Below, in pieces: positions 13,888-61,700 of a DNA stretch of 64,000 bases. Origin of the DNA: Alitta virens (lineage: Eukaryota; Annelida; Polychaeta; Phyllodocida; Nereididae); the NCBI GenBank assembly GCA_932294295.1, contig OW028584.1:26318970-26382969 (forward strand). Reading direction: 5' to 3'. The position numbers were made by a program, and so were the translations under genes. How positions within the stretch are numbered: the first letter of the stretch is position 1; every line of letters starts with the position of its first letter. Under the pieces are notes generated by a model, which was not told the DNA's origin, ran no database searches, and was given only the letters and a program-made list of their open reading frames with translations.

Positions 13888-13892
13888 ATTAC

Positions 13893-17389: not shown

Positions 17390-18803
17390 TTAAAGACTCT
17401 CCTTCGAAACGTGAGGCACAGTCGAAAACTACGCGAAGTTTGTCAGGCTTCTTTTCACTAATAACAGCGTGATGTGGGAGATACCAGACTTTATCAACCT
17501 TGTCAATTTCATTGACTGGAACCAGTTCTGCATAGCCAGAGTATGGAGGTTCATTCTTTTCAAGACCTTCATTTTCCAAATTCCATAGGCATTCTACATT
17601 ATTTTCAGGAGAAGACTTGATGAAGTGAGAGACTGCCCTTTTGTTTGTTACAAAATTGAGAACATCTGGCCCATTTATTGACCACCCAAACAGAGTTTTA
17701 CTTGCAAATGGCTCACCTCTATTCCCTTTCCTAATATCCAAAGGAACTAAAGCCTCCGCATTGCCCTGACCTATCAGAAGATGCACGGGTTGACCACCAG
17801 CTACAAACTGCAAACCTTGAAAGTGAGCATAATCTTTAAGATTTGGATAAGTTGTGTACACTGGTATTTTATCGACAACATAGACATCTTTAATGGATAA
17901 GGTTTCTTCACCATCTAAGGACGACAACTTCAAATTGACTGCTTTTGACTTAACCTCTTCATCAGAGTTCAAGGTACTAAGAGAATAAGTGACAGGAGTA
18001 CCATTGAGACCTAACGATTCTATTAAATCTCTAGAGCAAAATGAATTACTGGAAGCTGTATCCAGCAAGGCGCACACTTCACGTGAGTTATTGATTTTGA
18101 CTGCAACTACAGGCATGTGTACATTTGTAGACACATTTGCGTTTGCATTTACAAGCCTGACATTTGTAGAAGAACTAGCACCCTGACATTGCAATCGCCA
18201 AGGACGAGAATTGTTATCATCGACATGTATGAACTTATTGTGTCTTTTGTCACAACCGGGTACAGTACAACCTGATTCTCTGCGACATTCGGCAGTTTTG
18301 TGGTTATCATAGAAGCAAACTTCACAAAGATTTTTACTGACAACAAATTCTAATCTCTGCGCTGGTCGCATGTCTTTGAATTCATTACAATAAGAGAGCT
18401 TGTGGTTTCCCTTACACAAAACACATGGATACACCTTTTGATTTGTTTTGGAAGTGAAAGAGTTGCTTTTCTTAGAACTCACATTTGCAACCGTATGCTG
18501 ATTGGACCTAACATTCAACTTGCCATAAACTGGGTCTGAGGCTTCACGTGCCTCCTTTGAAATAAACTGGACAAGTTCCTCAAACGTAGGATACCTTTTC
18601 TTGTTATCCTTTATCTCCATTGCTTTTCTTTTCCACCTAGTTCTCAGATACAGTTGCAAACGTTCTACAATTTTGATCATATAAGCTTGACTCTCAACTT
18701 CAGTCAGGCGTTTCATACCTTTGAGTGTTGCCAAACTATTGCTCAGTTCATCTGAAAATTCCAGCATTGCTGGCTCAGAACGAATTTGTTTACCATCAAT
18801 CAA
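17367..18803 (-). pseudogene. BEL gag C-terminal part, zinc knuckles, aspartic protease and start of RT
   Basis: In order: remainder of the DUF1759-type gag domain, two Cys/His clusters (CVLCKGNHKLSYC and CEVCFYDNHKTAEC) that bind RNA in the family, the retropepsin site ALLDTASSNSFCS near residue 245, and the RT entry VWYLPHHAVIS with KLRVVFDCA at the end. It is in the same frame as 19,187-18,807 but separated by a single TAA at 18,807-18,809. Confidence 0.9.
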
Positions 18804-18806
18804 ATT

Positions 18807-19465
18807 TTATACAATTCTTTCGGTAACCAAGTAATCATTACCAAATCTGTCTAACAAAAACAACAAAATTTCTTTGGCCTTTTTATACCCTTCATTGGCC
18901 TCCATGAGTACACATGGACTAATGGCAACATTTGCATCCTTACACGTATATTGCAACAATCTGGTAAGTTTGATTTTATCACTTTCATCAGAAGCATCAA
19001 CAGTTTCATTGAACACTGCCATAAACATGTGATATTTTAATGGATTGCCATCAAATTTTTCAAGTTCTATTTTCGGTAAATTCATATACCTGACAAGAGC
19101 TTCAGCCATGGTTTCTTGCAGTTTTGCCGCACCTGCTTGCGATTCTATGGCCACTTTCTTCTCATCTAATAGACTGATTTCTTTCAAGATTTTGCGTCTT
19201 TAACAACATTGATGTACCTATCATACATTTCAGTAAAATAATTGTCACATGATTCAATGTCTTCATTACTTGCTTCTTCTGTGATTATTGCCACATAATC
19301 ATCGTGAGCTGTTTCAAAGTTTGTAAGTTTCTCTCGAATAGATTTTACATGTTCCTCGACATTGTCAATATCTTCTTCAATTATGAACTTAAGTAAGTCA
19401 TTTATTGATCTTGACAGAGCTGATTTTCTCGCTGCCCTGGACTTCTTCATTTCTGCTGCCGACAT
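18807..19465 (-). pseudogene. BEL gag N-terminal part
   Basis: The probable start is the ATG at 19,465 (MSAAEMKKSR). A coiled-coil-like charged N-terminal region leads to a frameshift near 19,185. The second frame then carries the DUF1759 core (LPKIELEKFDGNPLKY, LTRLLQYT, LLDRFGND). It stops at the premature TAA at 18,807. Confidence 0.85.
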
Positions 19466-19495
19466 CTTGTTGACGTTCCGAAGTGTTTTATTCAC

Positions 19496-20026
19496 TATTG
19501 AATAGTGCCGAACTAAAGTTAGATGAAGATGCCTTTATTCACGAGAATCATTATACGAGCGGTGAAACTGTAAATTTTTTGAACAAAAATAATAATATTA
19601 CAATATAATAATCACAATTTAATATTACAATAATTATTAATATCATTATTAATATCATCTATAAATATCCAGCAAATGCATAATATACAAATATACAAAT
19701 AATAATAATGCCTAAATTAACTACCAATTACTTACAAAACACATGGCATCATCAGCACAATCCAAGGATAAGAAACAATTTTCGCCTGATAATGTTCAGT
19801 TTTGACCATTGCATATTCTTCTTAAAGTAATAGCCTATTCTATGAGCTACATGTTAGCTCCTCAGCTTCTCTGGCATGACTGGCACTAATTGAGTGACCA
19901 ATCACATGACCAAATTAAAAGTTAATTAATATTCCACCAGGGGGAGAAAATATCAACATTGACCTGTAGTGCCCCCTTGAGAATATGTATACAATATGAA
20001 TGATAACAGCCTAGATGGCTGTTACA
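19496..20026 (-). repeat. BEL 5' LTR
   Basis: 531 bp, about 98% identical to the other LTR. The internal sequence beginning at 19,495 on the minus strand (GTGAATAAAACACTTC) does not show the usual TGG that starts a primer-binding site, so the primer tRNA is not evident. Confidence 0.9.
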
Positions 20027-27011: not shown

Positions 27012-27833
27012 TGTCATATAGTGACGTTTATGTGCCAGGTCATCTTGTGGTTAATTGTTTTAAACAGTTGTTTTCAAGATAATTCTGAAATATTGTTCAT
27101 TCTAAATTCATTAAACTTATGAGTGAGTTCAGTATGTTCTGCTGATTTTGTTAAGTCTCTAACAAAATCCAGAAATGTTTGGCTTCCTAAGTTATAAGTA
27201 ATTCCTACACAACTCCCTAGGTGGAGAAATTCAGTATTTAGTGAAGTTCCTATAAGTTCTATAAATTCCCACTAGGATAGTTTTCTGAGGGCCCACAAGG
27301 GTTCTGGGGTAAAACGGGGCTGCAGCCAGATTGCAGACACACTCAGAGTCACACACACTGAGAGAGAGAGAGAGAATCCAAATTATGCACTAGATGAGTA
27401 GCTCTCAGCTATCTCTGATCCTAGAGACAAAATTCACTGTAGGAATAAGTCAGGACTTCTGATTATAGACTAAATTGTCGTGATGAATCCACTGATATCG
27501 AGTCGGACTTAATGACTACCTAATTGCCAGATGAACTCAAACTTGTGAGATAAGACATTTTTATATGGACTAATATGTCTTGAATACTCAAGCAATATCA
27601 ATACCACTTTGACATGGATTTTTGACAATACATATTGGAATCTTATCTTCAGACTTTGTCTCATTTATTCCTTATTATCTGAGATCTAATGGAAGCATGG
27701 TATTGTTCAGCCGTCTCTTAGGTATGACAGCCTGAGAGGGGGTCTGTTCGGTTCTGGACACTAAACCTCTCGCCAAGCTTGTGATGCTCAATTTCCCCAA
27801 ATGACTATTAAGAAGAAACCACACTCTACCGCA
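27012..27833 (+). repeat. 5' LTR
   Basis: 822 bp, TG…CA ends, alignable to the 3' copy over its full length with many substitutions and small indels. It contains a (GA)n run near 27,360, also present in the 3' LTR. Confidence 0.9.
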
Positions 27834-27851
27834 TGGTGGCATTCATCCGGG
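27834..27851 (+). promoter_or_regulatory. Putative primer-binding site
   Basis: Directly after the LTR CA, TGGTGGCATTCATCCGGG begins with the TGG expected to pair with tRNA CCA. The first 8 bases match the complement of some tRNA-Leu ends, but the rest does not, so the primer is undetermined. Confidence 0.5.
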
Positions 27852-28603: not shown

Positions 28604-30598
28604 TGGAGTCTAAAAATATTATAAATTTCTGTGGTAAGGTATCAAAATTGGTCGGATAAATTACGAAGTGAGATTAAGGAAGCAGAGATTTATGGTATAT
28701 TGCCAGAGCGTACCAAAAGATTACTTAGTAGGTCTGAATCCTCATTATTTGAGTCATGGGTTTTATTACAAGACTCTGAAAATAAAACATGGCGAGATGA
28801 TAGGTCTCTTATCGTTGAATCGGGTTTTCTTCAGCTTAAGGATTGTTTAAATGATGTAATACAATGTGAAGAAAATTTACATAGCTTGTTAACCCGTTCT
28901 TATAGAGAGGATATAAAAAAGGGTATTTATGCAGCTGATACATCATTTACTGGAGTTTGGTCTGATCGTTTGTATTCCGCTCCTGTAGTTGGTGCCACTA
29001 TGAGTTCTAAAGAGTCCGATAATACTGAAAGTGCTGGTCAAGATAAAGACAATTCAGGGCCTCCTCCTACTGAACAAGAAAGTGATGCCGAAATAGATCT
29101 CACAGGGCGAAAGTCTCCTGATTTTTCGGATCCAAATATAAATCATGAATTGAGAGTTTCAGGTGCTTCTGCTGGTTTAGGCGATTCACAATTTACAAGC
29201 ACGACCAGTCTGTCAGGTAACAGGTTTGAGAAGTATGGAGTAAGTTCTTCAATTGGTCGTGGTATTCACTCGATAGGTCGAGGAAGTAGTTTTAGTAGTC
29301 GTGGTGTTGGTAGTCGAGTCCATTTTACTGTGCCAGAAGAACCTAGATTTAGCACAATGGAAGGGTATATGGAACGAGGTCGTAGGGCCCAATCTTTAAA
29401 GTTTTCAGAAATGATGCCTAAAACCTTTTCTGGTGAAGACAAGCTGCAAGATCCGACTTCTTGGTTTATTAAATTTAAGGATTATATCAGTCTGCATCAA
29501 TTGACAGAACAGGAAGTATGGGAGAGATTATGTCTATGTACAAAAGGCGTTGCAAGGTCATGGGTGGCAAATTTAAGGGTCATGTCAGTTGAAGACTTGG
29601 AAAAGTCCTTTTTACAAAGATTTGGTTTGTTACATTCTAGAGAAGCTGTCTTTGAGTCGCTGTCACAAAAGAAGCTAGTACCAGGTGTGTCAGTCTCTAA
29701 GTATTTAGCAGACATACAAGATCTTGTGTGTAGATTGGGATTATCACCTGAAGTGGTTCGTGATTATTTTGTCAAGGGATTGCCTCGTTCGATTAAATCG
29801 AGTATTCAAATTGTTCGTGGTGTTAGTTTAGATGAATTAATTCCCATTGTAGAAGGTCTCTTGGAATGTCATCAATTTACACCTGAAACGCAAACGTCAG
29901 ATACTGGAGGTACGTCTAATCATAATTTTACACTTAGTATGTCAGCTTTGGTTGATTCGGTTAGCCGTCTTGAACGAGAAATGCAAAAAAGGCCTGTTCA
30001 AGTAGTTGAGAAAGAAGTGGTTTTAAATGATGGTGACAAACGTGATGCTCGAAGAGTTGCTAATGCTAGTCCTTCTAGGGATGCCCGAGGTGTTGCTAAA
30101 GTTAATCCTTCTGGAAACTCATTTCGAGGCAGAGGTCGTCAGCCTGGATATTATGGAAGAAGTACTCGTGGTAATTATGTAAGTGGATTCAGTGGCAATT
30201 GCTTTTATTGTGGTAATGTTGGCCACGTCATGCGTAACTGTCCATTATACCAGAGTGATGGATTTGTCCCAAATGTGCCAAGTGTCACTAATGACTATCC
30301 AGTAAATGAATATAATTATGCTCCGAGTAATTATCCTACAGGTAGGTCCTATGATTATCAGACAGGCTATGACCCTAATACTCATTACCAATATCCTGGT
30401 AGCGGATATAACTCTTCAAGAGGGAGAGGTTATTATGGCGATTATGTTCCCTATTTTCCGCAAAATGTGAGAGGACGAAGTTCTTATGGTCCTAATTTTA
30501 GAGATCGAAGCCAGTTGTCCATCACAGGTCGTGATTCCAATGTACAAGGAGGTCCGCCTAGGCAGAATCCTGTTGGAAACTCGAATAATCGAGCCTGA
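28604..30598 (+). CDS. Gag polyprotein (one probable early frameshift)
   Basis: A long open frame (28,631-30,598) with no early ATG. The ATG at 28,604 in a neighbouring frame is the likeliest start, implying a frameshift near 28,635. The capsid-like retrotransposon gag domain spans about residues 262-415 of the open frame (PKTFSGEDKL, DPTSWFIKFKDYI, VARSWVANL, FGLLHSREAVFESL). An RGRG-rich nucleic-acid-binding part includes one CCHC zinc knuckle, CFYCGNVGHVMRNC, at about 523-537. A second Tyr/Gly/Arg-rich tail follows, ending in TGA at 30,596. The survival of 655 open codons in an otherwise decayed copy is notable. The function inferred is capsid assembly and RNA packaging. Confidence 0.85.
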
Positions 30599-31000
30599 CG
30601 AACGGCATCCGCTGAGGGTGCTGCGTCAGCCGCAAAGGCTCCCTATGTTTCTTTGCCGCAAAATGTTGGTCAAAAATCTGATTTTGCGTCTTCTGATGAC
30701 GTATTGTCTGGTTCAGTGAGTAATAATGAAGTTATGGCTTGTGCTAGTAGTGTTAAGGCTTCTGATGAGTGTCAGAATTCATTGGATTCAGTTATGGTGT
30801 TTACAGTTAAATTGGGTGAACAGAATTTAATTGCTACTAGATTACCTGATGGCACTCGATTTATGTCTTTGTTTGATAGTGGTAGTTCCAAAACGCTTGT
30901 CTCGGTGTTTTTAGTGAAAAAGAGTCCATTCCTGATGTCCTTGCCTGTTGTGAAGATTGATAAGGTTATAGAAATGGTAGTTGGAAATGGTCAATGGCTT
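30599..31000 (+). pseudogene. Retroelement aspartic protease, in frame with gag
   Basis: The frame continues directly from gag, separated only by the TGA at 30,596-30,598. The retropepsin site reads SLFDSGSSKTLVS near 30,865-30,905. The domain runs to MVVGNGQW at about 31,000, where homology breaks off at the RT deletion junction. Confidence 0.75.
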
Positions 31001-33365
31001 GTGGAGGAGCTCTTTTTCAATTACAAAAGAATGAGAAAGGAGAAACAGAAAGAGTTTTGTTAGGGTATTCTAGTCGAGTTTTTAGTCGAATTTCAGCTAC
31101 GTCATTAAGTATCACTGAATTGGAACTGCAGGCTTTGTATGTTGCTTGTTTGCAATTTAAGCATTTACTGGGACCACAACACTCGTAACTGATCATTTAC
31201 CTTTGCAGCAGATTTATAATTCCTCTGCGAAATTTGCTACGCAAAGAATAGCTAAAATGTATTGGAGGTTGCAACAGTTTGTTTTTACAATAGTTTATCG
31301 TAAGCCAGACACTGATGAGATCTTATTAGTTGATTTATTGAGTCGACATCCTAATAAGTTTTGGCAAGTTCCGGATCCTTTGGTTATTCCTTTGGGAGTC
31401 GATGAGAAAGACATCTCTGAAAATGATATTTTGTGTAAAGAATTGTGTTCTGTTATTACTGAAATGAATATTACTTCAATTACTGATGGGGATGATATGC
31501 AGGAGTGCGAAGACCGTGCTTTTGGAAATGACTGTAATCTTTGTTTCGGTGACTCTCAGGGTCATTTCTTATTTCCAGTTGTGACAAGATCAGTGGCTAA
31601 AACAATAGAGCTTCAGATGTTGTTTCAGTTGACTCTAAATCCTCGGATGTGCTTACACATGATGAAGTTCAAATGGCGAAATCTTCGCTTAGAAATGAGA
31701 ATAATGTAAAGAGCAATGATACTAAAATAGCTAAAAAGGTGCGTTTTAATGTTCCACATGATCAGGATGCCTCTTTAGATAAAGCCCTGGGTTCCAATCT
31801 AGCTAGTAGTGATGTTCGTTTATCTGATAGATTAGGTGAACCGAAGGTTGGCATAATGGTTAAAGAGCCTGGTCATATTGTACAATTACCTAAAGAGAGC
31901 CCCAGAGACCTTTTGACTTCTGAGGCCAAAGAAACTAAGATTTTGTCCAGAATGCCTCACCAAGGTGAGCTGGATAAAGTCATACGAAAATATATTGAGG
32001 AAGTGCTTGTGAATGTTAAAGTTCCTAATACTCCAGCTGAGATTAGGCTTGCTCAATAGGAAGATCCCTTTCTAGGTCCTTCGGATATATATTTGCAGAA
32101 TGGCAAATTAAGTGGGACTAAAAATCAAAAGAAGACTACTTTATCTTTAGCTGACAATTTTGCTTTGATTGGTGATATGCTTTTTCGGGTGTCCTATAAT
32201 AGCAGACTTGATGACGTTATGGTACAGCTTACATTGGCTGAGAAACATGTTTTTGATTTATTGGAATTTTATCATTTTGGTTTAGGTGTTCACGTTCGTA
32301 TCAATAAATTGTATGATTCAGTCCGACGTCATTTCTATGTTAGAAATTTGTACAAATATGTATTGGATTATGTTAGAAGTTGCTTAGTGTGTCAGAGGGC
32401 TATTGGGCCTAAGGAAAATGAGCAAAATAGAGAATTTGTTCCTAGAATTATTGTGGATGCTAGGCCATTTTCAGTGGTTCATTTTGACCTTAAGGCTTTT
32501 CCTGGTCAACATGCTCAATATGAATATTGTATGGTTATGCAGTGTGAGCTTACTAGATTTGTTGTCGTATCTCCTGTTAGGAATCGTCAAGCAACTACAT
32601 TGGCTAATTGCTTTATTGAAGAATTGTGCTTGAAGTATTTTATTCCTGATAAAGTTGTGTGCGATCTGGAGCCAGCTTTTGCAAGTGAATTAATGAATAA
32701 AGTTTTTGAGGTTCTTGGTGTTTAACCTCATTTTGTTAAGCCAGGGGGACATGGTTCTTTAATTGCTGAAAGAGCCATTCAGTCTGTCACTAACCTATTA
32801 ATTAGTTTTATGGAATATAGATATTCACATTGGCCTTTATTGATTAAGATGGCAGCTAAGGTATTTAATGATTTGCCTGGCTCTCAAATGCAATATTCTC
32901 CAAATTTTTTATGTTTTCTAAGAGAAGAGAAGCCTCTTGGTAATTTGAAGGTAGAAGCATTATCTTTGTTAGCCAGAGACTATGGCCAATATGTGTCTTT
33001 ATTGAAAGAACGTATGGATTTCGTTAGAAGAAATGCTGTTCGCATGCACAATGAAATTAAAATAAAGCAAAGTCAAGCGCAATTATTTGGTGCTAAAAAG
33101 ATTGAGAAATATAAATGGTCAATTAGTCTTATTAAATAGTCCTATTCATAGTGGACTGCATGCTAGTCGAAAGATACAAATGAAATATATTGGTCCTTTG
33201 TATATAAGTCATCAGGCTGATTGCAATTCTTGTGTGTTAGCTACAATAGATGGATATAAACTACCTAAGTATTTTCATGTTAATAGGCTTAAGAAGTGTT
33301 GTATTAAAGGAATCGATGGAGTTCTTCTTAATGATATTGATAAGTTCGAACTCAGGTCAAAATGA
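31001..33365 (+). pseudogene. pol remnant: RNase H and integrase; reverse transcriptase deleted
   Basis: Immediately after the protease comes the RNase H tether (ACGGALFQL, LGYSSRVFSR, SITELELQALYVA, 31,000-31,180), so the whole RT with its YxDD box is missing. A second frame (31,203-31,709) finishes RNase H (RIAKMYWRLQQF, DLLSRHPNKF). A third frame (31,649-33,139), with TAG at 32,057 and TAA at 32,723, carries the HHCC domain (His pair about 32,270-32,290, CLVCQR at about 32,385), first Asp in VVHFDLK, second in VCDLEPAF, and Glu in SLIAERAI after the stop. The frame 33,087-33,365 ends with a KYIGPLYIS / FHVNRLKK module. This Ty3/gypsy-type integrase keeps all three catalytic residues. Confidence 0.85.
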
Positions 33366-33742
33366 AGAAATTGAGCGTTGCCCAATTTGAGAAGGCACAA
33401 GTTAGGGAAAGTGAAGGTCAAATAGAATTGCAATTATCATATATGGAGAATACTGCTTGTATGTTATGTGAAAAGACTATTGAGTATAAAGAATTTGATG
33501 AGAATGTTCTAAATTATATACCTACTGCTATATATAGTAATTATAGGGATACTGAGAGAGGATTTATTTCTATTTATGAGTCAGATGATGAGTCTGAAGG
33601 TCATCTTGAAGTTTATGTTAAGTTTGAAGGTCCATTGAAGGCTTTAAGTATGTGGCATCTTATGATGTCTAGTCCGTTCATGCTGGATGCAGTCGATCCA
33701 GATGATACTAGATTTAAATTAACGGGAAGAATTTCAAGTTAA
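33362..33742 (+). CDS. Small ORF overlapping the pol stop (126 aa, unknown)
   Basis: ATG at 33,362 overlaps the pol stop as ATGA (TGA 33,363-33,365). It encodes an acidic 126-residue protein containing CMLCEK, a Tyr-rich middle (IYSNYRD) and an acidic ESDDESEGH segment, with no recognised domain or membrane segment. The ATGA overlap resembles start-stop reinitiation, but a simple pol frameshift remains possible. Confidence 0.5.
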   Translation: MKKLSVAQFEKAQVRESEGQIELQLSYMENTACMLCEKTIEYKEFDENVLNYIPTAIYSNYRDTERGFISIYESDDESEGHLEVYVKFEGPLKALSMWHLMMSSPFMLDAVDPDDTRFKLTGRISS

Positions 33743-35583: not shown

Positions 35584-37465
35584 AAACACTTTAATGATGA
35601 ACAATTTTTGAACACATCTATTTTTGATAAATTTATTGTATTTTTATGTTTAATTCCTATTTGGACTGTTTTAAATTGGAAAAATTGTATTACTACTTTA
35701 ATTTTTATTGAAATGATGTAAGAATTCTGCTATTGAAATGACTCCAAAGATTCTTTCATTATGTTCGGTGGGGTTTAAATAATGTTTAGGTATTGCTGGA
35801 TCTAGCTCAGTCTTGGCGCTTATCTGCGCATGCTCTTTGCTTGTTTAATTTTGTATTGCTTGAGTGCTTTCTAAACTGCGTCGAATTGTAGGCTATGCCT
35901 ATTTCATCTCTTGCCATGGTGCTCGAGTTGCTTTCCATAGAAGATTGCCGATTGTTGATTGTTCGGATTGATTATCCAGTTAGTGTGTGAGGACGCTCAT
36001 TTCTAGTGGAAAGTTCTTCTGACTACTGCTTTCACTTGAATTAGTTTTGGTACGTATATTAATGTTATTGTGCACTGTTCTATATAAAGTACTATCAGAA
36101 ATGGTATGAGGCTCCACGTTTACTGGTTTCCGAAGCTGGCCTGAAATCACTAAAGCGGTTTAATTTAATATAGTGAAGGTTACTTATAATTAGGTGTAAT
36201 TTGCGAATTTGAATGATGATGACTTTAAATGTAGAGTATTGAGAATTGTGCGTTGTAAGTAGTTACAACATATCATGTATAAGTTACAATTACTTTAAGT
36301 AATTTAGTGTTAATTGTGAAGAGACGGACTCGTTCGCATGTTTTTGTGATTAAAGTAAGTTGAGAAAAGCGAAATTAATTGGAGGCGATGAAATTAGATA
36401 AGGCATTATGATTATCTTAAATGTAGGAATTTGGAACCTCTGGTTGGGATGGTTGACAGATTTATATTGAGAAATGAGAATCCGTTCTGATGAAGAATGA
36501 TGAAGGTCAAGTATCCGGTCGAGGAGGACTTGAATTCACATTGAATTAAAGAAAAAGAAGGTAAGGAGTTCAAATATCCGTTAGGGAGGATTTGAATCCA
36601 AATTGGAGGTCAGGTATCCCGTTGAGAAGGACTTGGATCCAAGTAAATTAGAAGCAAGTAAGGTCAAGTACAAAGAGGACTTGAATTACTGTAGATGTAA
36701 AGAAAAGGTAAGGTCAAGTACAGAGAGGACTTGAATTACGGTAAAGTAGATTAAAGAAAAGTAGATTAAAGAATGGGGAAAATGAAGGGGAAGGTGTATC
36801 TTTATAAAGTCATTTGTCAATCTAAATGAATATTGTACCAGTACCAAAATCTTGAGTTGATCTAGCTTAACATCGTCGTTTGCTCTTTGTTCTAATTATT
36901 TCTTACCATGTCCATTGTAATTTCAGTGGAATTTGCCTGCCATTTTGGGGGAGTATCAGATATCCATATTGACTTGAAAGTCGAGTTCACATCCTATCGT
37001 TTATTCATCATATAAGAACAATCGATTTACTGTGCATAAGAATCAGCCAAATTGTTCAGAAATCCTCTAGAAATCTATATCATTCTGCACTTTCTTACAG
37101 TCTTGTCCAATTTCCAGAGGAGTTATATTCTTCCCTCTATCCATCATAAGGAATGAACCCGGTTTATAGATGGTTTTTACCTGATTACTGAATTATTCTT
37201 GGTTCTTTGATTGCTGCGATTTTGATTATTGTATTGATTGTATGTTGTTGTACACGTCGATAATTCATTTATTGCATTGTTATATATGTAATTGATTAGT
37301 ATAATTCTTGAAATCTACGTTAGGAATATGTGTTATGAGTGTCATTTAATATATCTATCTTGTGTTTGTGTATACATATCTATATATATGTGCATATTAC
37401 TCTTAAGTAAAGTTTGGGAAGAACTTTAGAATGATACTTTGAAATTATATCTCAGTGTTAGCTAT
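35584..37465 (+). other. Long non-coding region upstream of env-like gene
   Basis: No convincing frame. It includes the hairpin array at 36,505-36,740 and AT-rich sequence after it. Candidate splice acceptors exist but none can be assigned. Confidence 0.4.
36505..36740 (+). repeat. Five iterated hairpins with compensatory changes
   Basis: Five units spaced about 50-60 bp, each TCAAGT…GGACTTGA-like: about 36,508, 36,567, 36,608, 36,662 and 36,712. Stem changes are compensated: unit 2 has TCAAAT with ATTTGA, unit 3 TCAGGT with ACTTGG (pairing through G-U). Units 1-3 also keep CC…GG inside the stem. This pattern argues for conserved RNA stem-loops and not a mere repeat. Confidence 0.6.
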
Positions 37466-39505
37466 ATGAATGCTGAAGGTAGTGAAGAATCGGAAGATTC
37501 AGAAATTAGTAGAATAGAACGTTGTATTGATGTTTGCTTTACGACTGGCATCGATTGGCAAAATCCAACTAATGTCATAAGCGACATGCTTATGACATTA
37601 GTTGGATTTTGTCTTTTTCATGTAGTAATTGGAGTTACTCATAGTCCTCCAAGATATGTAATTCCTGGTCAGAATGACACATGGGCATCCTGCAGTGAAG
37701 GCACCATGAGAAGCATTGCTAGGCCTTTACCTAATACTTTTAATAATTCTTGGAAATTTCATCCTAGAAATGCTTTACCAGCATTGAATTGCTTTGTTGA
37801 TGGACCATCGGTTATTAAGACGATATTTGTTGAAGGAATGCATGGGCATGCTTCTGCTTTTCGTCCATACAGTTCTTTGCCTAATCTGGATAAGTTGTAT
37901 TTTCGAAATTGGAAAAACATTATTTCTTTTAGATCTTTATTAGAAATGTATCCGCATTTGAAATTATTGCAACTTAAAGACACAGAATTGTATGATTTCC
38001 AACATATGCATACAAAATCTTCATTGAATGAACTGACTGGATTAACAGCGGACATTAATACTCCTGTTCTTACGTCCATTAATTTGCCTCATTTGACTAA
38101 TTTGTCGGTAACTATTAAGGGTTCTGTCAGTCGTAATTTATTGACAGGTCTTGATTTATTAAAGCTTAATTATATAGATCCTGATATTCCATATTTTTCC
38201 TGGGATGCTTTGAAATCTAATGCGTCTAGTATGCGTGAGTTGTCATTACATATTCCTAATTCTTGAGTTATTCTTAAAGGTGGATGTCCTTATCCACATT
38301 TGACGAAATTAGAAATGACTTCGAAATATGCAGAGTTTAGTATGGCTATTTTTGGTCATACAGATCGATTGGCTTTTGAAGATTTGCGTGAATTATGGTT
38401 AAGATATTTCCGTTTGGCCCAATACATACCTATGTTTAAGTTAACTTCTTTAGAAAAGTTTGTTTTGGAAGCTCCTCCTGGTTCATTGTCTAGTATTAAA
38501 TTTGTTCCTAAGACTTTGAAAGAATTTTAGGTAACGAAAGGTAATTATCCTTTATTACTGCCAGATTCTTTTGGTGCTCCAATGATGGTTGAGAAATTGA
38601 CGCTTAGATATTGTCATATTAAAGTTATTTCTGCTAATGCTTTCGAAAATTTCCTAATTTGCGTGTGCTCAATCTTGTGCAAAATGAATTGTCTTCATTT
38701 GTAGTTTCTCCTGATACAATGCGTAATCTTGAAGAATTGAATTTAGCTGGAAATCAATTAGTTGTTTTTCCAATGGAAACTCTGTCATTTCCTAAATTAG
38801 TTACTCTAAATGTGATTTGGAATCAGATTGAAACAGTATATACTACTAAAATTACTATGGAGCGTAACTCCTACTCTTAAACTTGTGGCAGCATTTACTA
38901 ACCCAGCTGTTTGTGACTGTAATTGGGTAATACTCGATACTATATTGCCTGAAAATGCTACTTTGTCTGGAAGATGTGATAATCATACTTTAAGGTTTTC
39001 TGACTTAAATGTCACTTTGTGTGGTCCTGAAAAAGTTTCTCGTTTCAGTAGATCTTTAACTTCGGACAAATTACCTGATGTAGTAAAAGAACCTGAATTA
39101 TTCGATGTTTCAAATGTTAAAATCTATTTATCTGAACAGCGTAAGCAGTTACTTTCCTTAGCTGCGTCGTCCATCAATGATGCTAAAGAGAATTTCGTCA
39201 GATCAGAATTAGGAGTTGGTTTTGATAGATTTCAATATTTATATCCTGGAGTTGAGAATTACTTTGTTCATATGCATGTTAGTTGGCTTGAAATTAATTT
39301 ACCTGACGCAAATTTTATGGATGACGCATAAGGGCAAATTTGTACTTCTCAGGATAGTTTAATTAAGGCTATTTGTTCGGATTTTCAACCTTTGATCACT
39401 TATGCTAAGTCTCATTCGTTAAAATTGAGAGCTAAAGTTCAGACACAAATTTCAGAAGTCACTAATGCTTTTTGTAAGTCATTTTCACCTCTTAGAGAAG
39501 AAAGT
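37466..39505 (+). pseudogene. Env-like glycoprotein, N-terminal (SU-like) half: LRR ectodomain
   Basis: ATG at 37,466 is followed by about 40 acidic/polar residues and a hydrophobic segment (about residues 41-59) that could be an internal signal sequence. An LRR solenoid follows: diverged repeats from about 37,900, and clear LxxLxLxxNxL repeats at 38,660-38,870 (LRVLNLVQNELSSF, LEELNLAGNQLVVF, LVTLNVIWNQIETV). It is capped by an LRRCT with NPAVCDCNW and two further Cys. Breaks: TGA 38,264, TAG 38,528, a frameshift excursion about 38,650-38,865, TAA 39,329. All blocks otherwise lie in one frame, shared with the downstream half, so this was one ancestral reading frame. Role inferred: receptor binding. 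Confidence 0.7.
37560..37610 (+). repeat. Perfect 23-bp inverted repeat in env-like frame
   Basis: Arms 37,560-37,582 and 37,588-37,610 are exact reverse complements around the 5-base loop GACAT. It spans the start of the hydrophobic signal-like segment. Confidence 0.97.
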
Positions 39506-41887
39506 AGACAGAAAAGAGAATTTACTACTAATGATATTACCTCTTTGCTTAATGATTCATCTTGGGATTCTCATCATAAGAAAGCTTTTTGGCTTGGTAT
39601 CTTTATTCCTCCTGCTGGGGTTGCTGTTCATGCTACCTTGACTAGGAAATGATCTAGAGCTTTTAAGTATGGGTTACAAATATTATCTGGTAGACAAAAT
39701 ATTATGAAAGAAAGTCATTTGGATCTTCGTAATGATCTCACTAAGGCCTTTAATTTATTAGCCAATCAATTTGATAACACTACATCAAATATCCGTACTT
39801 TGTTTCAATTACTGAATGATACAAATCGAGAAATGTCAGTTATCTTTGGAGATATACAGAAAAGTTTTAACATGTTACAACAGAAAATTCAAGCAGTTCG
39901 AGTGTTAAGTGTCCTTACTTCTAGATATTTACAATTGTGGAATTCTCATGCAGGTCAGTATGATAAATTAATAGGTGAATTAGATCAATTGTTACAGTCC
40001 ATTCATGAGCTACAGCATGGACGAATTTCTCCTAAATTGGTTCCTCCATCTAGTATGCTGAAAGCCATAGCTTCATGTGAAAAGTCTTTGTCTAGTTGGC
40101 ATCGTGACTATAAACTGATTTTCATTTCTCTTGCTGAATATTATAGTTCATCTCAAGTGGTGTTTGTTCCTATGGAAAGAGGTTTGTTACTTCAGTTAAT
40201 TTGGCCTATCACTCCACGTAATAGTCCTAAATATAGTTTATTTCATGTACAGTCGGTTCATGTTCCTGTCAATACTAATCCCACTTTTGTTTCTCCTGAT
40301 TCTAATCATGATTATACTAAAGTCACTCTTCCTCATCCATATTTGACCGTAGCGAAAAATGAGCATTTTATTGAAATGAATACTGAAATGTTGGAAAAAT
40401 GTGCATTGATCGGTGATACATACTATTGCTATGAATCTTTTCTGGAATTAGATAAGATCGAATTAACATGTTTAACAGCTTTATATTTGAATGCTTCAGC
40501 TAGTATAATTGCTGATAAGTGTGATATCACCTATTTCTTTGAACCTTTCAAGCCCGAACCATCTATTCTTGATTTGGATTCACAATTGCTTGTCAGTGGA
40601 CTTAATCAACCTTGGAGATATCAATGTCAGGAAGATAGAATTCCTAAAGATTTGACCGGTTCACCATACGCACTCATTGAGCGTTCTGCTCTTTGCCAAT
40701 GTAGCATAACTTCAACGAATGGACACATAGCTCGTCGAATAACAAATTGTGCTTTGAATCCACAACCTACGTTGCAGTTAACTTATGTTGCTAATTCGCT
40801 AATTTCTACAACTTTTCCTAATATTACGATGACTCCTCTTGATCCTAATGAAGTCTTAGCTACTGATAAACCTATCGAATTACCCAAATTAAAGGTTTTA
40901 CAGAAACTTAAGGAAGTTCGTTTAAAGAACACCACTACTGGATCTATTCAACTACGTCGTTTGGCCCAATTAATTGATGATAAAGGAAAGAAATTTGAAG
41001 ATGAATGGGACAGGATTGCCGCTGATATTGCTTTTGAAGCTTGGTTCACTCGAAATCAATGGCCTAAAGCTTTAGCTTTTATAGGAGGAATTTTAGGTCT
41101 TGTTTCCCTCTTGATGTCTTGTTATTTTTGCTGTTTTGGTCAGTTTACCAATGGTATGGTTCGATCTATGATGTTTGTATCAGCTCCTCACGTTGCTCAA
41201 GCAGCTACACTTCAAAGTGGGAACATTGTTGAGTTAAGCAAAATGTCTTATTTTTATTTAACTTTATCTCACATGGCCGTTGCAATAGTCGTTGTGATGC
41301 TTTTGTATAGTGGTAAACAATTGATTTCGTATTGTTTTAGAGAGGCTCGTGTTCTTATGGCTCATCCTGAATTAAGAAAACACCCTAGAGTTGAGATATT
41401 TCTTGAAATCCATAGTGGATGTGACCGAGTTTTAATGTATGTGATGACTGTTCAAGCTCCCATTGCTCAATTACACTTTACTGGTAATTTGAAAGTTTCT
41501 GATCTGATTGTTGATAATCATCGTTTGTATAGTGTTCTGCGACCTAATTGGAACGCCGGAAGTTGTGCTTTAAGAGTAAGGCATTTATCGTTAGAATTAC
41601 CATCATTGGTTCCCATTGCTTTTTATAAGAGAAAGAAGTTTCAGGAAATAGTAAAGAAAGAATGTATGTGTGAGATAATTGCTACAGATGGCCTATATCT
41701 CTATCGTTTAGCAAATGATACTCATGAGGTTATTTCTGATGAGAAAATTATGTCTCCTTATTCAGCCCTCATTGAGGAATTACGTCAGAAAGAAATTGAA
41801 TGCCAGGCATCTGGATTCAAAGTTAATTATCTTGGTCCTCCTATTAGGAAACCTAATGCTCCTGAAGGTGAGCCTATTGAAGTATAA
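39506..41887 (+). CDS. Env-like glycoprotein, C-terminal (TM/fusion-like) half
   Basis: It begins at a furin-type RQKR site (39,506-39,517). A hydrophobic stretch (FWLGIFIPPAGVAV, about 39,587-39,630) could be a fusion peptide. TGA at 39,650 breaks the frame; from 39,704 it is open for 727 codons. A long heptad coiled coil leads to LQHGRISPKLV near 40,014, resembling the LSP-type motif of baculovirus-F/errantivirus Env proteins. A Cys-rich part with several N-glycan sequons follows, then TM1 at about 41,065-41,136 (GGILGLVSLLMSCYF) and a second hydrophobic segment at about 41,255-41,335. A ~170-residue C-terminal domain of unknown type closes the frame. TAA at 41,885. The second membrane segment and long tail are unusual for Env. 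Confidence 0.7.
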
Positions 41888-42969
41888 GGAACTGGATTGT
41901 GCATTCTGACTTGGCAAATAACATGATTCTTGTGACTAATTAGGTTTATTTAGACGTATTTCATAAATAATCATATATATATATATGTATGTATACGTAA
42001 TTGGCATATCTTGCTATATTATCTTTTGCATGTGTTACATGCATAATTGCTGATTGGGATAGTCGAGCTACGCTTTTGCTAAAATGTATCAGTTAGGAGT
42101 GCACGTTAGTATACTGACTCCATTGGTAACTTAGAGACGTAAATCGTTGCTAAAGGTATTGATAATTATTATATATGAATTAAATGTTCTTGAAATAGTA
42201 TACAAGAAAATCAATTCATTTTGTATTGATGTAATCATTAATTCGTAATTGATATGTTGTTCATGTATGTACATTTGTTTTTGTAAGATTGTTTCAGTGA
42301 CCAAGAATTATCTTGATGAATTTCCGGATTACGAATGGATTTATTACAAACATTATGTCTGTGAACAATGTGAAAGTGACTTCGATTTTCACTCAGACTT
42401 TGTGAAAGAACGCTTCCAAACTGAAGTGACACGTTCATTCGAGTTCATCGAAATGACTTTCAAACTTGACTTTGGTCCTGTGACATTTAATTGCTTTATG
42501 GCACATATCTTGTGTTAGCATGTCTTATTTGCTAAGATATTTGTCTAATTTTATTATTATATTACTTCACTTGTTCTTTACGGGTTTGACAAGGCTTGCA
42601 CTTCATCCCTCATCAACCTTGTTATCTTCAAGGAATGTCTGCGTCTTGCATTGTTCATATCTAAGTATTACATCTATACATGTACCTCTTATATTTAATC
42701 ATGCATTGCTATGGGATTGTACCCAGATTCATATATATATGAACAGAGTAATTAACTCAAGTGTATTATGCATGTTTTATGATTCTCTGTATTTGTATAT
42801 TTTACCTGTATTATCGATTTTATTGTACTTTGTATCTGTATCTTTGGTATTGCTTGAGTGGCGCGCTTCTTATGACAAAAGTTAAGGTTCTACATTTGGA
42901 AATTTTTCGATAAAAAGAAATTGAAGTATCAAAATCTTGTAAAACGAACTGTTTTCTGACAGGGCGGCA
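41888..42969 (+). other. Region between env-like gene and 3' LTR with a small candidate ORF
   Basis: A frame from ATG 42,267 to the TAG at 42,516 (about 83 residues) looks coding-like, with CEQCESDFDF and an acidic/aromatic composition, and follows TTGTTTCAG, a good splice acceptor, near 42,290. No domain recognised. The segment before the LTR (CTGACAGGGCGGCA) is a poor polypurine tract. Confidence 0.35.
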
Positions 42970-43776
42970 TGTCATATAGTGACGTTTATGTGCCAGGTTA
43001 TTTTATGATCAATTGTTTTAAACAGTTGTTTTCAAGATTCTTCTGAAATATTGTTTATTCTAAATTCATTTAAACTTGTGAGTGAGTTCAGTATGTTCTG
43101 CTGATTTTGTTAAGTCTCTAACAAAATCCAGAGATGTTTGGCTTCTTAATTTAGGAGTGATTCCTACACTGCTCCCTAGGTGGAGAAATCCAGTATTTGG
43201 TAGAAGTTTTGATAAGTTCTAAAAGTTTTCACTAGGATCGTTTCCTCAGGGCCCACAAGGGTACTAGGGTAAAAAGGGGCTGCAGCCAGCTCTGCAGAAA
43301 CAGAGAGAAAAACAGAGAGAGAGAGAGTCCAGAATATGCAATAGCTTCAAGCTATCTCTGATCCTAGACTCAAAATTCACTGTAGGAATCAGTCAGGACT
43401 TCTGATCACTGACTGAATTGTCGTGATGGATTCACTGATATCAAGTCGGATTTAATGACTATCTAAACTGCCAAATGAACTCACACTCACGAGATAAGAT
43501 AATCTGTATGGACTAATATGTCTTGAATAACTCAAGCATTATCAATACCAATTTTGACATGGATTTTTGACAAATACATTTTGGAATCTTATCTTCAGAC
43601 TCTGTCTACTTTATTTCTTGTTTACCTGAGATCTAATGAGCATGGTATTGTTCAGCCGCCTCTTAGGTATGACATCCTGAGAGGGGGTCTGTTCGGTTCT
43701 GGACAATAAGCCTCTCGCCAAGCAAGTGAAGCTCATTTTTCCCCAAATGACTAAGAAGAAACCGCACTCTACCACA
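42970..43776 (+). repeat. 3' LTR
   Basis: 807 bp, same ends as the 5' LTR, with visible substitutions throughout; the polyadenylation signal could not be assigned. Confidence 0.9.
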
Positions 43777-55732: not shown

Positions 55733-58700
55733 TCACTTATCATCAGCATCAGTTATCACAACTTTCTCGAAAGCACTCGTTACCTGCAAACCAGCGGGAG
55801 AGTTTATATCACCTCCACCAGGTGTCACTTGAGGTTCCGGCTGCAAACCCAATTTTTCCTGAGCGTACTTTATTGTGATATTCATGGCTTCTTGAAGACA
55901 TCCAATGTTGGTCCCTGTAGCCTGAGCAGAAGCATCTTTTCCTCCTCCTTTGCCGTTCATTAAGTTTGAGACTTGCGTCACCCACTCGTTTGCTTTTAAG
56001 CCTTTGGCGATCAAGTCCTGTGCAACAAAAGTATGTGATAAGTATATTAGGGCACTATACTTATTTGATCTTTAGCTTCTAGGATGTTCTCAGGGCAATT
56101 CTTAAGGGTCAGTTGGTCAAAAATAAAAATAAAAATTGAATATATTAAATTACATTTGGACTTATCATTTTTAAATTACTTCCTCCCTGACAAATAAAAT
56201 TTTATCATCTTATCGACAGATCCGAGAAGTTAAAAATTAGCTAAGTGTCACCCGGGATAAAATTGTAATCAGTACAGTGTTACATCAACAGGTAATTAAA
56301 ACAAATTGGTGCATTAAATGTTATGCCAGGAATATTCCCCGTACTTATTGAATAAGTTTGTATCCAAGCATAAATTTTGTTTGTAAGTTTATTTACCAGA
56401 AGAAGCATATTATATGCTTATCGAGCTGGTAAAAATTAAAGATAGAAAATTTAGAACAATACATTGTGATACTGAGATAATAATTACATGTGTATTAAAA
56501 AATTGAAATTATAGTGTATTAAAAAATTGAAATTATAATGAAAATAAAACAGAGTTGAATAAAGTAATCTATATACTATAAAAAGGTAGTTAAAAGCAAA
56601 ATTTTGATAATTTGGAATAATATCTGGAAATATTTTTTAAATTACGATTGTTGATAATTCATGTATATAAGATGATTCTTTATCGTTCAACTACATGATT
56701 TAATGAAACTTTCCCCATTTCAAAATGTGATGGCAGTTGTGTCTCTAATATGACTGATTGCATAATTTCCAGGGGTCATTTAAGTGTATTTGCAGATGCT
56801 CCCTTTATCATTGTGCATTTTCCTTGATGATAAATCTGATAGGTACAGTTATAGGTAGATCGAATTGATTCAAATCGCACATTAAAATGAAAATTAGCTA
56901 ATATCACAAGTCTTATGACTTTCACCATATCATCACCATTTTAGAAAATGCCACACTACTAATTTTTCACAAATGTTGTCGACTGTAAATGATATTACAC
57001 AATTACCTTTGGAGCCCTAGCCATGCATAGAATCTTTCCTAATTCATCGTCAACAGAGAAGAACATGCAAGCGGTGTTCGGAGAACTTGTGTTGTAAACC
57101 TTACACGCTCCGTCCAATGCCTGGAATATTAAATATCAAGATAAATAAGAGATATCAAGAAAATTAGTTATCATCGATAGCAATAATTAGAATGTTGGTA
57201 GAGATTTCAATGGCTGAATATAGATGTAAAATCTTAATATAATTAAAACCAGATCTCTTACTACTCCTTCGGACATTACTGCCATTTTGATTTTTCCGCC
57301 AAATATCGTAACAAAGATTTTCGGGGCAAAAATGAATGATTGTAGACTCTACAAGTTTATGCCTTCCGCCATTTGCACATATCACTTCTGTTTCAGTACA
57401 AGACCATTGATAACTTCATAATGACCATGCAGGTAAATACAATGGTCACTTTGTGACATCACAAAACTGACCATTGGTCAATTGCACTGAAACTGAGGTC
57501 ATATATGCAAAAGGCTGAGACATAAATAGAGCCTACTCAATCCTTAAATTCTGAACTGATGTTCAACGACATTCAATATTCAAAGGAAAAAACCAGAATA
57601 AAATCAATTCAAAATCAGCATTTACCTTAGCATTAGACAATGCTTTGAACTCATGAACGATAAAAACCTGGTCGGGGTTTTTCTCGATCATTCCTTTGCA
57701 TTCTTCTTGAACCTGTGAATATTAAAGACCCTGGATAAATGACAATAAAACTCTCAGGTAACCAGTTACATGCATTATATTTGCTTCCTTCAAATAAAAT
57801 TTAAGATTTAGATTCATTTGTCTGCTAATGATATTAAAATTCAGTTTTGTTCACAAAATGTTAAGCATTTCAATTTGTTCAAGTTATTTGTCGAGATAAC
57901 TAAAAATGACTCTTTTTGGGACACATTATTTGAAAACTAGAATATGAGATTGTCAATAAAAATTATATATATATAATATTAACTGAACCTAACATAAAGC
58001 TTTTGCTAAACACTGTTAAAAAACTGCAGAATCGATACAAAACAGCTATACAGACTACTAGTGTATACATTTACAAAATCAGAGGCTATATCTCCTTTAG
58101 GTGATCATAACAAATAAGGAAAATATCATTTTTTCTTCTTCGGTGTATCATTACTTTGAGAACGGAATTTGAGTCCTCCTGACTCTTAGTTGTTGTTTTT
58201 TTAAGGTCTCAAATACACACCAGTCACTTTCACTGTAACCACTCTTCAGCAAGAAGCATCGCCTGCCGTTCAAAGAAAGCAAAATAAATCACATCACTTA
58301 CGTCAGTCAGGATAGAAGCCTTCCTATTCTTGTCTAAATTGTCGACAGATAACTTCAATTTCTTCAAGTTATTTCTCAATTCGTCCCTTCTCCAGTACGG
58401 CGTTGATGATTGAGAAACTTCCTACAACAGGAAATTGAGAAATATAAGTAAGTCAGTAGGTAAGTAAGGGGTGTTCAGTAAGTAAGTCAGTAAGGGCTGT
58501 TCCATTTAAAAAAGAGGGGGGGGGGGAGTGGACTTAAATTTTTTTAGATCCCCACCCCCGATATCTGGTTTTTGCTCTAAGAATGAACATAAGTTTTATT
58601 TATTTCACAATTTTAGTTTTTGAAATAAATCAACAATAAAAATCATGTTGTATTCAAATAAATCCTGCTTTGAGTCGTACAAAAATCTAGTTTTCAACTG

Positions 58701-61700
58701 AATAATCTTGTTAAATTTCCAAAAAAATCTAAAAAAAAAAATTGTAATCTTTGATTTTTTTTGCCTTGATTTAAATCTTAATTTTTGTTATTACAACCAT
58801 GCCTCTTAGAATGTTGGTTTTGATAACTTATTACAATATCGTAAAACTTCATCCCAGCATCACCAAAGATACAACAGTATGCCTTGCATCTCTAATAAAA
58901 AGAAGTTGAGGCATCATTCTGACAAAATATAAGATGTAAAGCCCAAGCATTTTACGCTGATCAGATAGATCATACCTCTGTTAAGTCCACGATCTCTCTG
59001 TTCAGTGCCTTGTGAGAAAATTGCTTTGTCTTCACTGCTTCGTCAACTGTTAATTTCAACTTCTGATATGACTGTTCGAGCAACTCGGCTTTGTGGAGAG
59101 ACTGTAAGTAAATATAAATTGAATTTGGAATATTTTCTAACTAAATTGATAGTCAACATCACCATAGAATCATTTAATTGAAATGATTATTTCACCGTTT
59201 TTCACAGCCCAATCATCAAAAATAATATCAAGTAAGATACAAAATTTAGTACAGGCCATTACTTCATGAATATAATATAATTTATCAGCCAATATTTTTC
59301 ATGAATAAATACACAAGCACACAAATAAATATACAAATAAATTCAAACATGAACATGTGAATGTCAACATAGATTATGATGATAGACAATAGGTTATATC
59401 AAATCCCTTAAACAAAGTTGCAGTTTCAGACTGGCTATTAATTTGCCAAAACAATAGTTTTACCAAAGGTAAATACTGTAACAATATATATTACAAATTA
59501 CCCTGTTAGCCTCGGCACCAGTAACGGCCACAATTCTCCGGATTCCTTTAGCGATGGCTTCCTCTGTGATGATCACAAATTTTCCGATGTGTCCGCTCTT
59601 TTGCAAATGGCTGAAAAAATAAATAAATAATTGTAACCAAAAATTGTACGTTGTTGACCGCCAGTTCAATATCAATCACATTACTCTGAATGAAGAAGAG
59701 TAATAGATTATAAATTCTGAAAAAAAAAACCTAATTCACTTAGTACAATCCACTTGCGTAACTTGTTTAACTATATTAAACCATGATACAGCAATGTTGC
59801 CACTACGTCTTTTGACTTAATTATGATTAGTGACCTGTAAGCCCAATGTGGGATTGGTGACATTTACATATATTTTCTGTCAGATGACACCATAACAAAA
59901 AAAATTCTTGACTTACGTTCCACCACAAAATTCAACAGAATAGAGGGCGCCACCAGGTCCATCGGGGTCAGATAGAAGGTCATCCACAGAAGAGCCAATA
60001 GAGATCACGCGAACTGGGTCAGGATATACCTAAAAATAGTTTAACATTAAATACTATAAATACATTAATGAATAAACACTTGACACTTTTAAAGTGACCT
60101 CAAGTTGTAAATATTGCAAAAATCCACCCATAAAAATATATCTGCTAATTTTGACAACTATATTGACCAACAGACAGACAATAAATTTATTTGACAACAT
60201 TAGGTACAAAATATGTGAAATATAGTTTGGAGATGTTGTTATAGTCATTAATTAGGAGCTTCAGTGTCACTTTGTCTCTGGTTAAGAAGGGCAATGGCAC
60301 ACTGTCGATTTTTCCCATGTAGACCCATCTTAATCAGGTTCCCACTTGAAATATTCAAAACAATCTCAAAATAAAATTAAAATACCTCGTCAAAAACAGC
60401 ACGGAGTCCCTGAATGGCCTTAGCTTGAGCAAGAGAGGATTCCTTAGCATAAACCGAAAGATTTTGGCTCACGACTTCGTTGGCAATTCTCTCGGCTTCC
60501 TTCACCTGAGCAGCTGTCATGGCACCCTGGAATACAACATGACAATGCAGTTGATTTTCTTTCATGTTTAAGTTATAAGTTGTGACTTTATATCGATAAT
60601 TGATGAAATATGTTGATCTTTAAAGTAGAACTAAGTCCAGAAACTCCTAATTATTATTTTTGAAATAACAGGCACAACTAGTAATAAATACAGGCATAAC
60701 TAGTTATAAATTTAAGACTTGTTATTCAGAGAGGGAGGCAGCAAGCACTGAGATGTCAAAACCAATGTTTCTTGACATAATCTATTTTCCCGCTGGCAAA
60801 GATCGCCATGGAGCTAGCACAGTGACCTTTCCCCTGAATGGCCTTATTTCTGAAGATTGCAACTGTCGCCATCTATAATTACAGCTAGCAATAGTCAATG
60901 CTGGGCCAAATGATGTCATCGAACAATGTTTAGTTTCGTCTGCTTGTATTTAACGAGTTTCCTTTTGGTCAACTTTGCTTTTGATTATATACTATTTTCA
61001 CCAGAATGTCCAGTAATCTTATATAATGAATTGAACATAATTACCGGTAAAATTAAACAAACACATAATACAAAAATATAAGAGCACTGTGAAGAACTAA
61101 ACAATTTTAAATCCTGGAAAAGATGAAGTACCTTTGCAGTAAAGTCAAATCGCAGTCTATCGGCAGCAACCAGTGACCCTTTTTGGTCAGCTTCTCCGAG
61201 AACTTTTCGCAGTGCAAAATTTAGAACGTGGGTCGCAGTGTGGTTGCTCATGATCGGGCGTCTACGTGACTGGTCCACAAACAATTTAACTTTATCGCCA
61301 ACTTTCAAAGTCCCCTCGATGTTTCCTATGTGAAGCACATATCCGGCCCGGACCTGGACATTTTTGACGGTAAATTCTGTTTCCTGAAAAAGGAGATAAA
61401 ACATGTATAGTTCAATCTGTCAGAACAGAATTTATTTCATGAAATTGACTGTTATAATATAGCACCAAATAATCTTTTCTGTGTATTTATTTTTTTTGGG
61501 GAGGGGGGGTTGTCTTTCCTTAGAAGATCTGAGATGAATGCAGCATTTCACTGCAGTGCCCCTGTGTAATATATTTACTAGTTGCATGGGTATTTTTATT
61601 ATTGTTATACTATATCTAGGGAGTCTTCAGTCAAATAATATGGTAGATCACCATTTTAGTTTTCAGAAAAAAATGAATAAATTGTAAAAAAATTAGGTAA

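Follow-up and report, generated by a model that had tools for sequence, protein, structure and literature searches.

A ragworm LTR element whose envelope-like gene joins a leucine-rich-repeat ectodomain to a fusogen

The window analysed here, 64,000 nucleotides of chromosome 12 of the king ragworm Alitta virens, an annelid (26318970-26382969), holds an envelope (Env)-like glycoprotein gene that lies between two long terminal repeats (LTRs) and begins with leucine-rich repeats (LRRs). The question that this locus raises is whether an LRR ectodomain and a membrane fusogen are encoded there by a single retroelement gene and, if so, what the LRR part could do in it. The first part of the answer is confirmed: an LRR ectodomain and a fusogen are parts of a single gene between the LTRs, and this is a real feature of the genome. 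The element that carries it is probably an envelope-carrying Ty3/gypsy (errantivirus-like) provirus with an LRR-fusogen Env, in which the LRR would act as the attachment subunit. No Env with an LRR surface domain was found in the literature, in a search limited to one open library.

The env frame runs from 37.43 to 41.89 kb and is broken in the window copy, where its parts are the following:

37430..38530, + strand: N-terminal part of env, with a signal-peptide-like segment (about 37586-37645), the first LRRs and two in-frame stops; a segment open in intact copies
38568..38877, + strand: clearest LRRs of env, partly in a shifted frame here (Pfam and PDB matches)
38897..39031, + strand: LRRCT-like cysteine cap (CDCNW ... 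C ... C), from the sequence; NP..CD is common to three Env lineages
39080..39505, + strand: F2-like segment from the LRR cap to the cleavage site, with one in-frame stop; GV.F ... NLP ... C..F.PL is kept in three lineages
39506..39517, + strand: furin-type RQKR, from the sequence; at residue 716 in 12 of 12 intact copies read
39518..41071, + strand: F1 fusion subunit, with one in-frame stop near its start (homolog P0001)
41072..41887, + strand: two hydrophobic segments (41072-41128 and 41252-41308) and a conserved C-terminal domain (sequence, alignments)

The preliminary description of this DNA had proposed a single ancestral frame from the LRRs to the membrane anchor, and both stops and codon usage bear it out. 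Between 37466 and 38640 there are 2 stops in the claimed frame, against 31 and 49 in the two remaining forward frames. Trained on pieces of F1, gag, protease and integrase, a codon score is above 0 in one single frame from 37.4 to 41.8 kb and below 0 in all frames past both ends, and it fails just at 38.6-38.9 kb, where another frame scores best. The stretch before it, 33.4-37.4 kb, has 88-105 stops per forward frame, and the env frame begins after it. The lesions of the window env are four in-frame stops outside the shifted stretch, plus the frame shift, and all the stops and the shifted stretch are confined to the part before about 39.8 kb. Compared with five other copies, the window env (37300-41999) shows 87-96% identity up to that point, then 96-100%, with 94% in the last bin, a mosaic that is likely due to gene conversion or recombination. 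The signal-peptide codons are overlain by a perfect inverted repeat (37559-37611) whose arms measure 24 bases and whose loop measures 5; none of the 16 other env copies fetched contains an 18-base word taken from the arm, so the repeat looks like a copy-specific template-switch mutation.

Natural copies carry the argument further. A metagenomic protein of 732 residues, P0001, was the single homolog found of the ORF at 39653-41887 (48% identity over 96%) in a library of 5.8 billion proteins, where scoring was confined to 7995 candidates of limited length and further relatives are therefore possible. When the genome (671 Mb in 23 contigs) was searched with P0001, it gave 69 matches, 18 of them near full length at 49%. 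Thirteen of these 18 stand in an uninterrupted frame of 1518 residues from stop to stop, the remaining five in open frames of 1341, 1130, 965, 955 and 744 residues, the last being the window copy. Sixteen were fetched (the two left out are the window copy and L002, which differs from L001 at one base over 5142), and 12 of the 16 hold the 1518-residue ORF. In all 12, CDCNW stands at residue 518, RQKR at residue 716 and five LRR cores within 130-515; the first methionine is residue 44 in 11 of them and residue 10 in one, and they share 96.7-99.5% identity. The LRR half is thus kept in every intact copy read, and the objection, raised in advance, that related copies might lack it fails.

The same copies bear on a second objection, that a host LRR pseudogene lies beside an ordinary env by chance. 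The broken LRR half of the window copy would be in keeping with such an accident, but the uninterrupted frame in 13 of the 18 copies, the LTR matches found by reading on both sides of 13 of the 18, 11-18 kb apart (from an LTR search of the genome that gave at least 40 matches), the repetition of the arrangement in related lineages and a codon usage that fits the element make it vanishingly improbable, and the host pseudogene was rejected as ruled out by the intact copies. T is found at 0.48-0.50 of the third positions of the LRR pieces and at 0.42-0.57 of those of the F2, F1, gag, protease and integrase pieces, against 0.30-0.38 in the BEL, LINE, FkbM and AlaRS-like pieces of the window, a comparison in which host pieces are few. 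In codon usage the LRR part thus resembles the element's own gag, integrase and F1 and not the host-like pieces or other transposable elements.

As for the nature of the N-terminal half, the preliminary description had read it as LRRs closed by an LRRCT cap. The repeats are supported by Pfam and PDB: the piece at 38638-38877 matches LRR_4 (2.3e-10), LRR_8 (2.7e-9) and LRR proteins of the PDB from 5.8e-26, and the intact ORFs of L009 and L012, scanned whole, match LRR_4 at 4.1e-10 and 3.3e-10. The LRR part of L009 matches Toll-like receptor 13 at 8.2e-19 and LGR5 at 5e-17 in the PDB; an 11-residue LRR core occurs five times in L009 against 0.82 in shuffles, and 0 of 1000 shuffles reach five, the N-terminal part alone being weaker (one core, p 0.39; LxxLxL p 0.03). 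Of the cap, the cysteine pattern stands (CDCNW and two later cysteines at 38912-39022), and the LRRCT family match is missing, as told below. No TIR domain was found at E<=0.1 in the 1518-residue ORFs of L009 and L012. In PHROGs the LRR stretch has one match, to a family of unknown function (2.6e-8), and an NCBIfam scan gave just weak LRR matches, far below their cut-offs.

The C-terminal half appears, through its 48% homolog, to be a fusogen of the baculovirus F/errantivirus type, as P0001 matches Baculo_F at 5.8e-11. The layout read from the sequence is that of an F-type protein, with RQKR at 39506-39517, a hydrophobic segment after it at 39584-39640 and an anchor at 41072-41128; the furin-type motif, the LSP-like motif (SPKLVPP) and the hydrophobic segments already reported for this DNA are all there, and F1 holds, after the first hydrophobic segment, a helical region, SPKLVPP and a cysteine-rich ectodomain. 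Because the fusogen would be of this known type, the Env is of a familiar kind to which an LRR has been added. The domain after the second hydrophobic segment (41309-41887), without a significant match in Pfam, aligns in P0001 and in two of the related lineages described below, fam2 and fam4 (20-48% overall identity). A second protein search with another Env query (A1), whose candidate set held no proteins above about 1300 residues, returned P0001 again as its sole match; a scan of genome contigs with A1 gave none, and no match was confirmed in viral contigs scanned with Env, P0001, A1, integrase, LRR, LRRCT and gag queries.

The element around env is made up, from its 5' to its 3' end, of the following parts:

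27012..27833, + strand: 5' LTR, then the primer-site-like TGGTGGCATTCATCCGGG at 27834
28625..30598, + strand: gag-like ORF with a CCHC zinc knuckle (Pfam zf-CCHC 6.7e-05)
30599..31709, + strand: protease remnant (DSG motif) and RNase H remnant (sequence reading; RT_RNaseH E 0.16)
32060..33139, + strand: integrase in two ORF pieces (first piece by Pfam, second, 32726-33139, by reading)
42970..43776, + strand: 3' LTR (LTR comparison)

Several features of a Ty3/gypsy element are present in the window copy, namely LTRs, a primer site, a CCHC gag and the order protease, RNase H, integrase, in which the protease is called by reading and the RNase H weakly. The first integrase piece matches Integrase_H2C2 (4.1e-11) and rve (1.7e-05, below its cut-off), and the second has no integrase match in Pfam. 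No reverse transcriptase was seen between protease and RNase H, nor did Pfam give a match to one in the window pieces scanned, so the window copy lacks part of pol. Another copy (L059) has an identical LTR end with TGGTGGCATTCATC. An open frame of about 126 residues (33363-33742) lies 3' of the integrase, has no Pfam match and may be an accessory gene.

The two window LTRs share 696 matches with 97 mismatches, and no 4-bp target duplication is present at their ends (TTTG against ATAC). An age of the window insertion, taken from this 12% divergence, was set aside, since the copy is a mosaic without a target duplication and its LTRs need not be sisters. At three other copies, whose fetched LTR pairs differ at 1/792, 0/795 and 2/804 positions (0-0.25%), 4-bp duplications (TTAT, TTTT and CTTT) were read from the ends, and these three insertions are recent, given the near-identity of their LTRs. 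At G000:C2:65032247-65066605 three LTR matches lie 16.8 kb apart, and an env stands in each of the two intervals, which gives a tandem LTR-env-LTR-env-LTR array; over 5142 bases its two env stretches show a single-base difference.

These data also bear on whether the LRR-Env could be a domesticated host gene instead of a viral entry protein, for which open frames and purifying selection might speak. The many dispersed copies within LTR pairs, of which the three read have target duplications and LTRs that hardly differ, form instead the pattern of a recently active element, and domestication is highly improbable. The LRR part is under purifying selection: pN/pS over 66 pairs of intact copies is 0.54 for the first 85 residues (43 of which precede the usual first methionine), 0.17 for the LRR, 0.10 from LRRCT to F2, 0.06 for F1 and 0.09 for the tail, values that come from very similar copies with few independent events and to that extent weaken the case. 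Replacement-variable and synonymous codons stand at 27:45 in the LRR against 13:59 in F1 (p 0.015, in regions defined by the analyst), with relatively more replacement in the LRR.

The arrangement recurs within the genome, where four Env lineages besides that of the 1518-residue Env (fam1) have LRRs, fused to the fusogen in fam3 and fam4 and in a separate ORF just upstream in fam2 and fam2b. In fam3 (L025, 34% to L009), LRRs, a CDC cap, F2 and F1 form one ORF; in fam4 (L029 and L030, intact at 1269 residues, 21%), LRR-like repeats and a GNPFHCDW cap precede F2/F1, with furin-type sites on both sides of F2. The second lineage, fam2 (L034, L035, L036, L038 and L039, with L033 in more pieces), has an LRR ORF of 572 residues followed by a fusogen ORF of 863 residues, each with its own signal-peptide-like start and both whole in L035 and L036. 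In these two copies the ORFs overlap by 4 bases, stop to stop, in different frames (L036:2188-2191). In fam2b (L037), a 572-residue ORF with LRRs (PDB 4.9e-15) lies 218 bases upstream of the fusogen ORF. A broken copy, L026 (about 47%), matches LRR_4 at 1.8e-14, and no LRR was found in the four ORF pieces scanned of L028, which is fragmented. The LRR core motif is more frequent than in shuffles in fam1, fam4, fam2 and fam2b, and two control Env stretches do not contain it; the excess in the fam3 piece falls short of significance (p 0.106).

Plain F-type Envs of the same genome serve for comparison. Ten further loci were fetched, and their nine plain F Env ORFs contain no LRR family at E<=0.1; eight of the nine match Baculo_F, the other being L050, and in L045, L047 and L053 the first furin-type site is at residue 117-126. 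Of the ORFs upstream of plain F Envs just that of L053 was scanned, and it matches RVT_1 (2.7e-24). A Baculo_F search of the genome gave 20 matches, one in fam3 (L025) and one in L043, a locus outside the LRR scan, which among fetched relatives such as L040-L044 covered one ORF each of L041 and L042, matching RT and Baculo_F.

Do the LRRs of these lineages go back to one gain or to several? In a tree of 12 F1 parts, with plain_L049 as a long branch, a 99/99 branch parts five plain F Envs from the five LRR lineages, P0001 and L028. The fam1-fam3 and fam3-fam4 alignments start in the LRRs, cross the cap and extend into F2 and F1, and NP..CD of the cap and several F2 residues are kept in a three-way alignment. 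These features argue against a repeated capture of different LRR genes by the separate lineages, which is rather unlikely; it would be in keeping with the great divergence of the LRRs (fam1 and fam2 share 29% over 129 residues), with a fam1-fam4 BLAST alignment that begins only at F2, with the location of the LRR in another ORF in fam2 and fam2b, and with L028, which is on the same side of the tree and shows no LRR in the four pieces scanned. Whether P0001 and L028 are counted as LRR-less or as a third group, three changes of the LRR label are needed on the tree, and the well supported (starred) branches force at least two; the LRR state of P0001 is out of view on its contig, and L028 is in pieces. 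With P0001 and L028 left unassigned, a single gain would fit the tree. It is put forward tentatively that a clade of gypsy-type retroviruses of animals relies for attachment on an LRR module that was acquired a single time near the root of the clade and retained despite about 21% fusogen identity, fused in some lineages and a separate, possibly secreted, glycoprotein in others, on the scaffold of the Toll-type and adhesion receptors of the host.

Several observations tell against the LRR-fusogen interpretation as a whole. On the LRR side, Pfam LRRCT has no match in the window pieces or the natural ORFs; taken by itself, the N-terminal LRR piece (37430-38263) gave no significant match in Pfam, in the PDB or in a protein search; a crude search for LRR motifs in the window pieces gave a score that at best 30/500 shuffles reach, which is not significant at 5%; and the AlphaFold model of the N-terminal piece is weak (pLDDT 43), leaving the solenoid without structural confirmation. 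In that model strands recur about every 24 residues, and LRR proteins make up, by title, most of the 50 Foldseek matches listed, none of them at E<=0.001, so that the structure prediction called for earlier neither shows nor excludes an LRR fold. Among the relatives, the fam4 LRR has no Pfam match and a weak one in the PDB (8suf, a TIR-domain protein, 7.9e-5), and that of fam2 reaches 0.0018 in Pfam, below the cut-off, and 0.0043 as its best in the PDB. On the fusogen side, the window ORF at 39653-41887 matches no Env family of Pfam and no Baculo_F at E<=1, and the intact L009 and L012 do not match Baculo_F at 0.1; the link to that family runs via P0001 and fam3 (L025, 2.6e-5, 23.4 bits against a cut-off of 24.1), P0001 being known from a contig of 2859 bases in which the LRR state of its gene is not visible, and AlphaFold gives the F1 piece a mean pLDDT of 31 (two sequences), so that the fusogen fold lacks structural confirmation. 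The LRR-fusogen frame is accepted because natural copies hold it open as a whole, which is decisive over the weak N-terminal signals.

In the proposed mechanism, a single Env precursor would begin with a signal peptide, followed by the long LRR solenoid and its LRRCT-like cap, and continue with F2, a furin-type site, F1 with the fusion machinery, a membrane anchor and a conserved C-terminal domain, an order that would make the LRR the outermost part of the precursor. The usual ligands of LRR ectodomains are proteins or glycans, and fusion is carried out by F-type Envs; the LRR would accordingly attach and F would fuse, and an attachment subunit is the most likely role of the LRR. It would bind a surface protein on the target cell, and after cleavage at RQKR the F2/F1 fusogen could merge the membranes. 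Since in other lineages the LRR is encoded by a separate ORF immediately ahead of the fusogen, with a signal-peptide-like start to itself, the LRR seems to be a module paired with the fusogen, and in fam2 it may also act beside it as a separate protein. The capture of a host receptor to choose target cells, suggested in the preliminary description, would be one possible origin and use of this module.

The LRR might instead not bind an entry receptor at all and shield or stabilise the fusogen, or serve as a decoy for ligands of the LRR/Toll-type immunity of the worm or for its defence proteins. For such a role one could cite Toll-like receptor 13 as the best PDB match, a TIR-domain protein at the top of the PDB list for fam4 and fam2b, and the first ORF of fam2, which has a signal-peptide-like start and no anchor segment above threshold and could thus be secreted. 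However, a best match says little on kinship, as LRR families are too alike in sequence, and in fam1, fam3 and fam4 the LRR forms one protein with the fusogen and stands on its N-terminal side, where a surface subunit is usually found. A decoy or shield is thus improbable, and attachment remains the preferred role.

Compared with the F-type Envs of errantiviruses (gypsy, ZAM) and baculovirus F (PF12259), the ragworm Env shares the furin-type site, the F2/F1 order, the cysteine-rich ectodomain, the anchor and the position after pol, together with the Baculo_F profile via P0001 and, just below cut-off, fam3. It differs in a solenoid of about 450 residues with its LRRCT-like cap before F2, and in the second hydrophobic segment and conserved C-terminal domain at its end; the plain F Envs scanned in the ragworm genome also lack the LRR. 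The marks of Env-F are given as a signal peptide, a furin site, a fusion peptide, conserved cysteines and a transmembrane segment (PMC12992720), and env-carrying Ty3/gypsy elements are described across Metazoa, also outside insects (PMC12859917, PMC13172572); the ragworm element is likewise an Env-carrying gypsy element outside insects. Extracellular LRR receptors (Toll/TLR, LGR5, Slit, LRRC) resemble the N-terminal half in their LRRs with a cysteine cap and in PDB matches, whereas the ragworm LRR has no TIR match and is joined to a fusogen inside an LTR element. Paramyxoviruses enter with two proteins, an attachment protein (a beta-propeller) and F, and the separate LRR ORF directly before the fusogen ORF in fam2 recalls this system, with an LRR in place of the beta-propeller and a pairing at the level of gene order.

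To our knowledge, the choice of target cells by invertebrate gypsy elements with an env is poorly understood, and an LRR surface domain would offer a concrete, testable receptor-binding part on a well-known scaffold. It could also be a point of common ligands between a viral Env and the LRR recognition proteins of the host. The fused and separate LRR lineages illustrate ways in which a retrovirus can gain or split off a surface subunit, and a single genome holds them together with plain F-type Envs for comparison. If the tentative single-gain clade is true, it is a retroviral entry system built on the recognition scaffold of host Toll-type and adhesion receptors.

Elsewhere in the window, a BEL/Pao element lies at 14553-19534 on the - strand (Peptidase_A17 4.2e-49), and a tandem array at 12693-13898 has a unit of 162 bases in 7.6 copies. 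A guanylate cyclase piece is found at 119-487 on the + strand (1.4e-16), and alanyl-tRNA synthetase exon-like pieces are found at 55733-61419 on the - strand (DHHA1 5.3e-9; tRNA-synt_2c 8.8e-6, below its cut-off).

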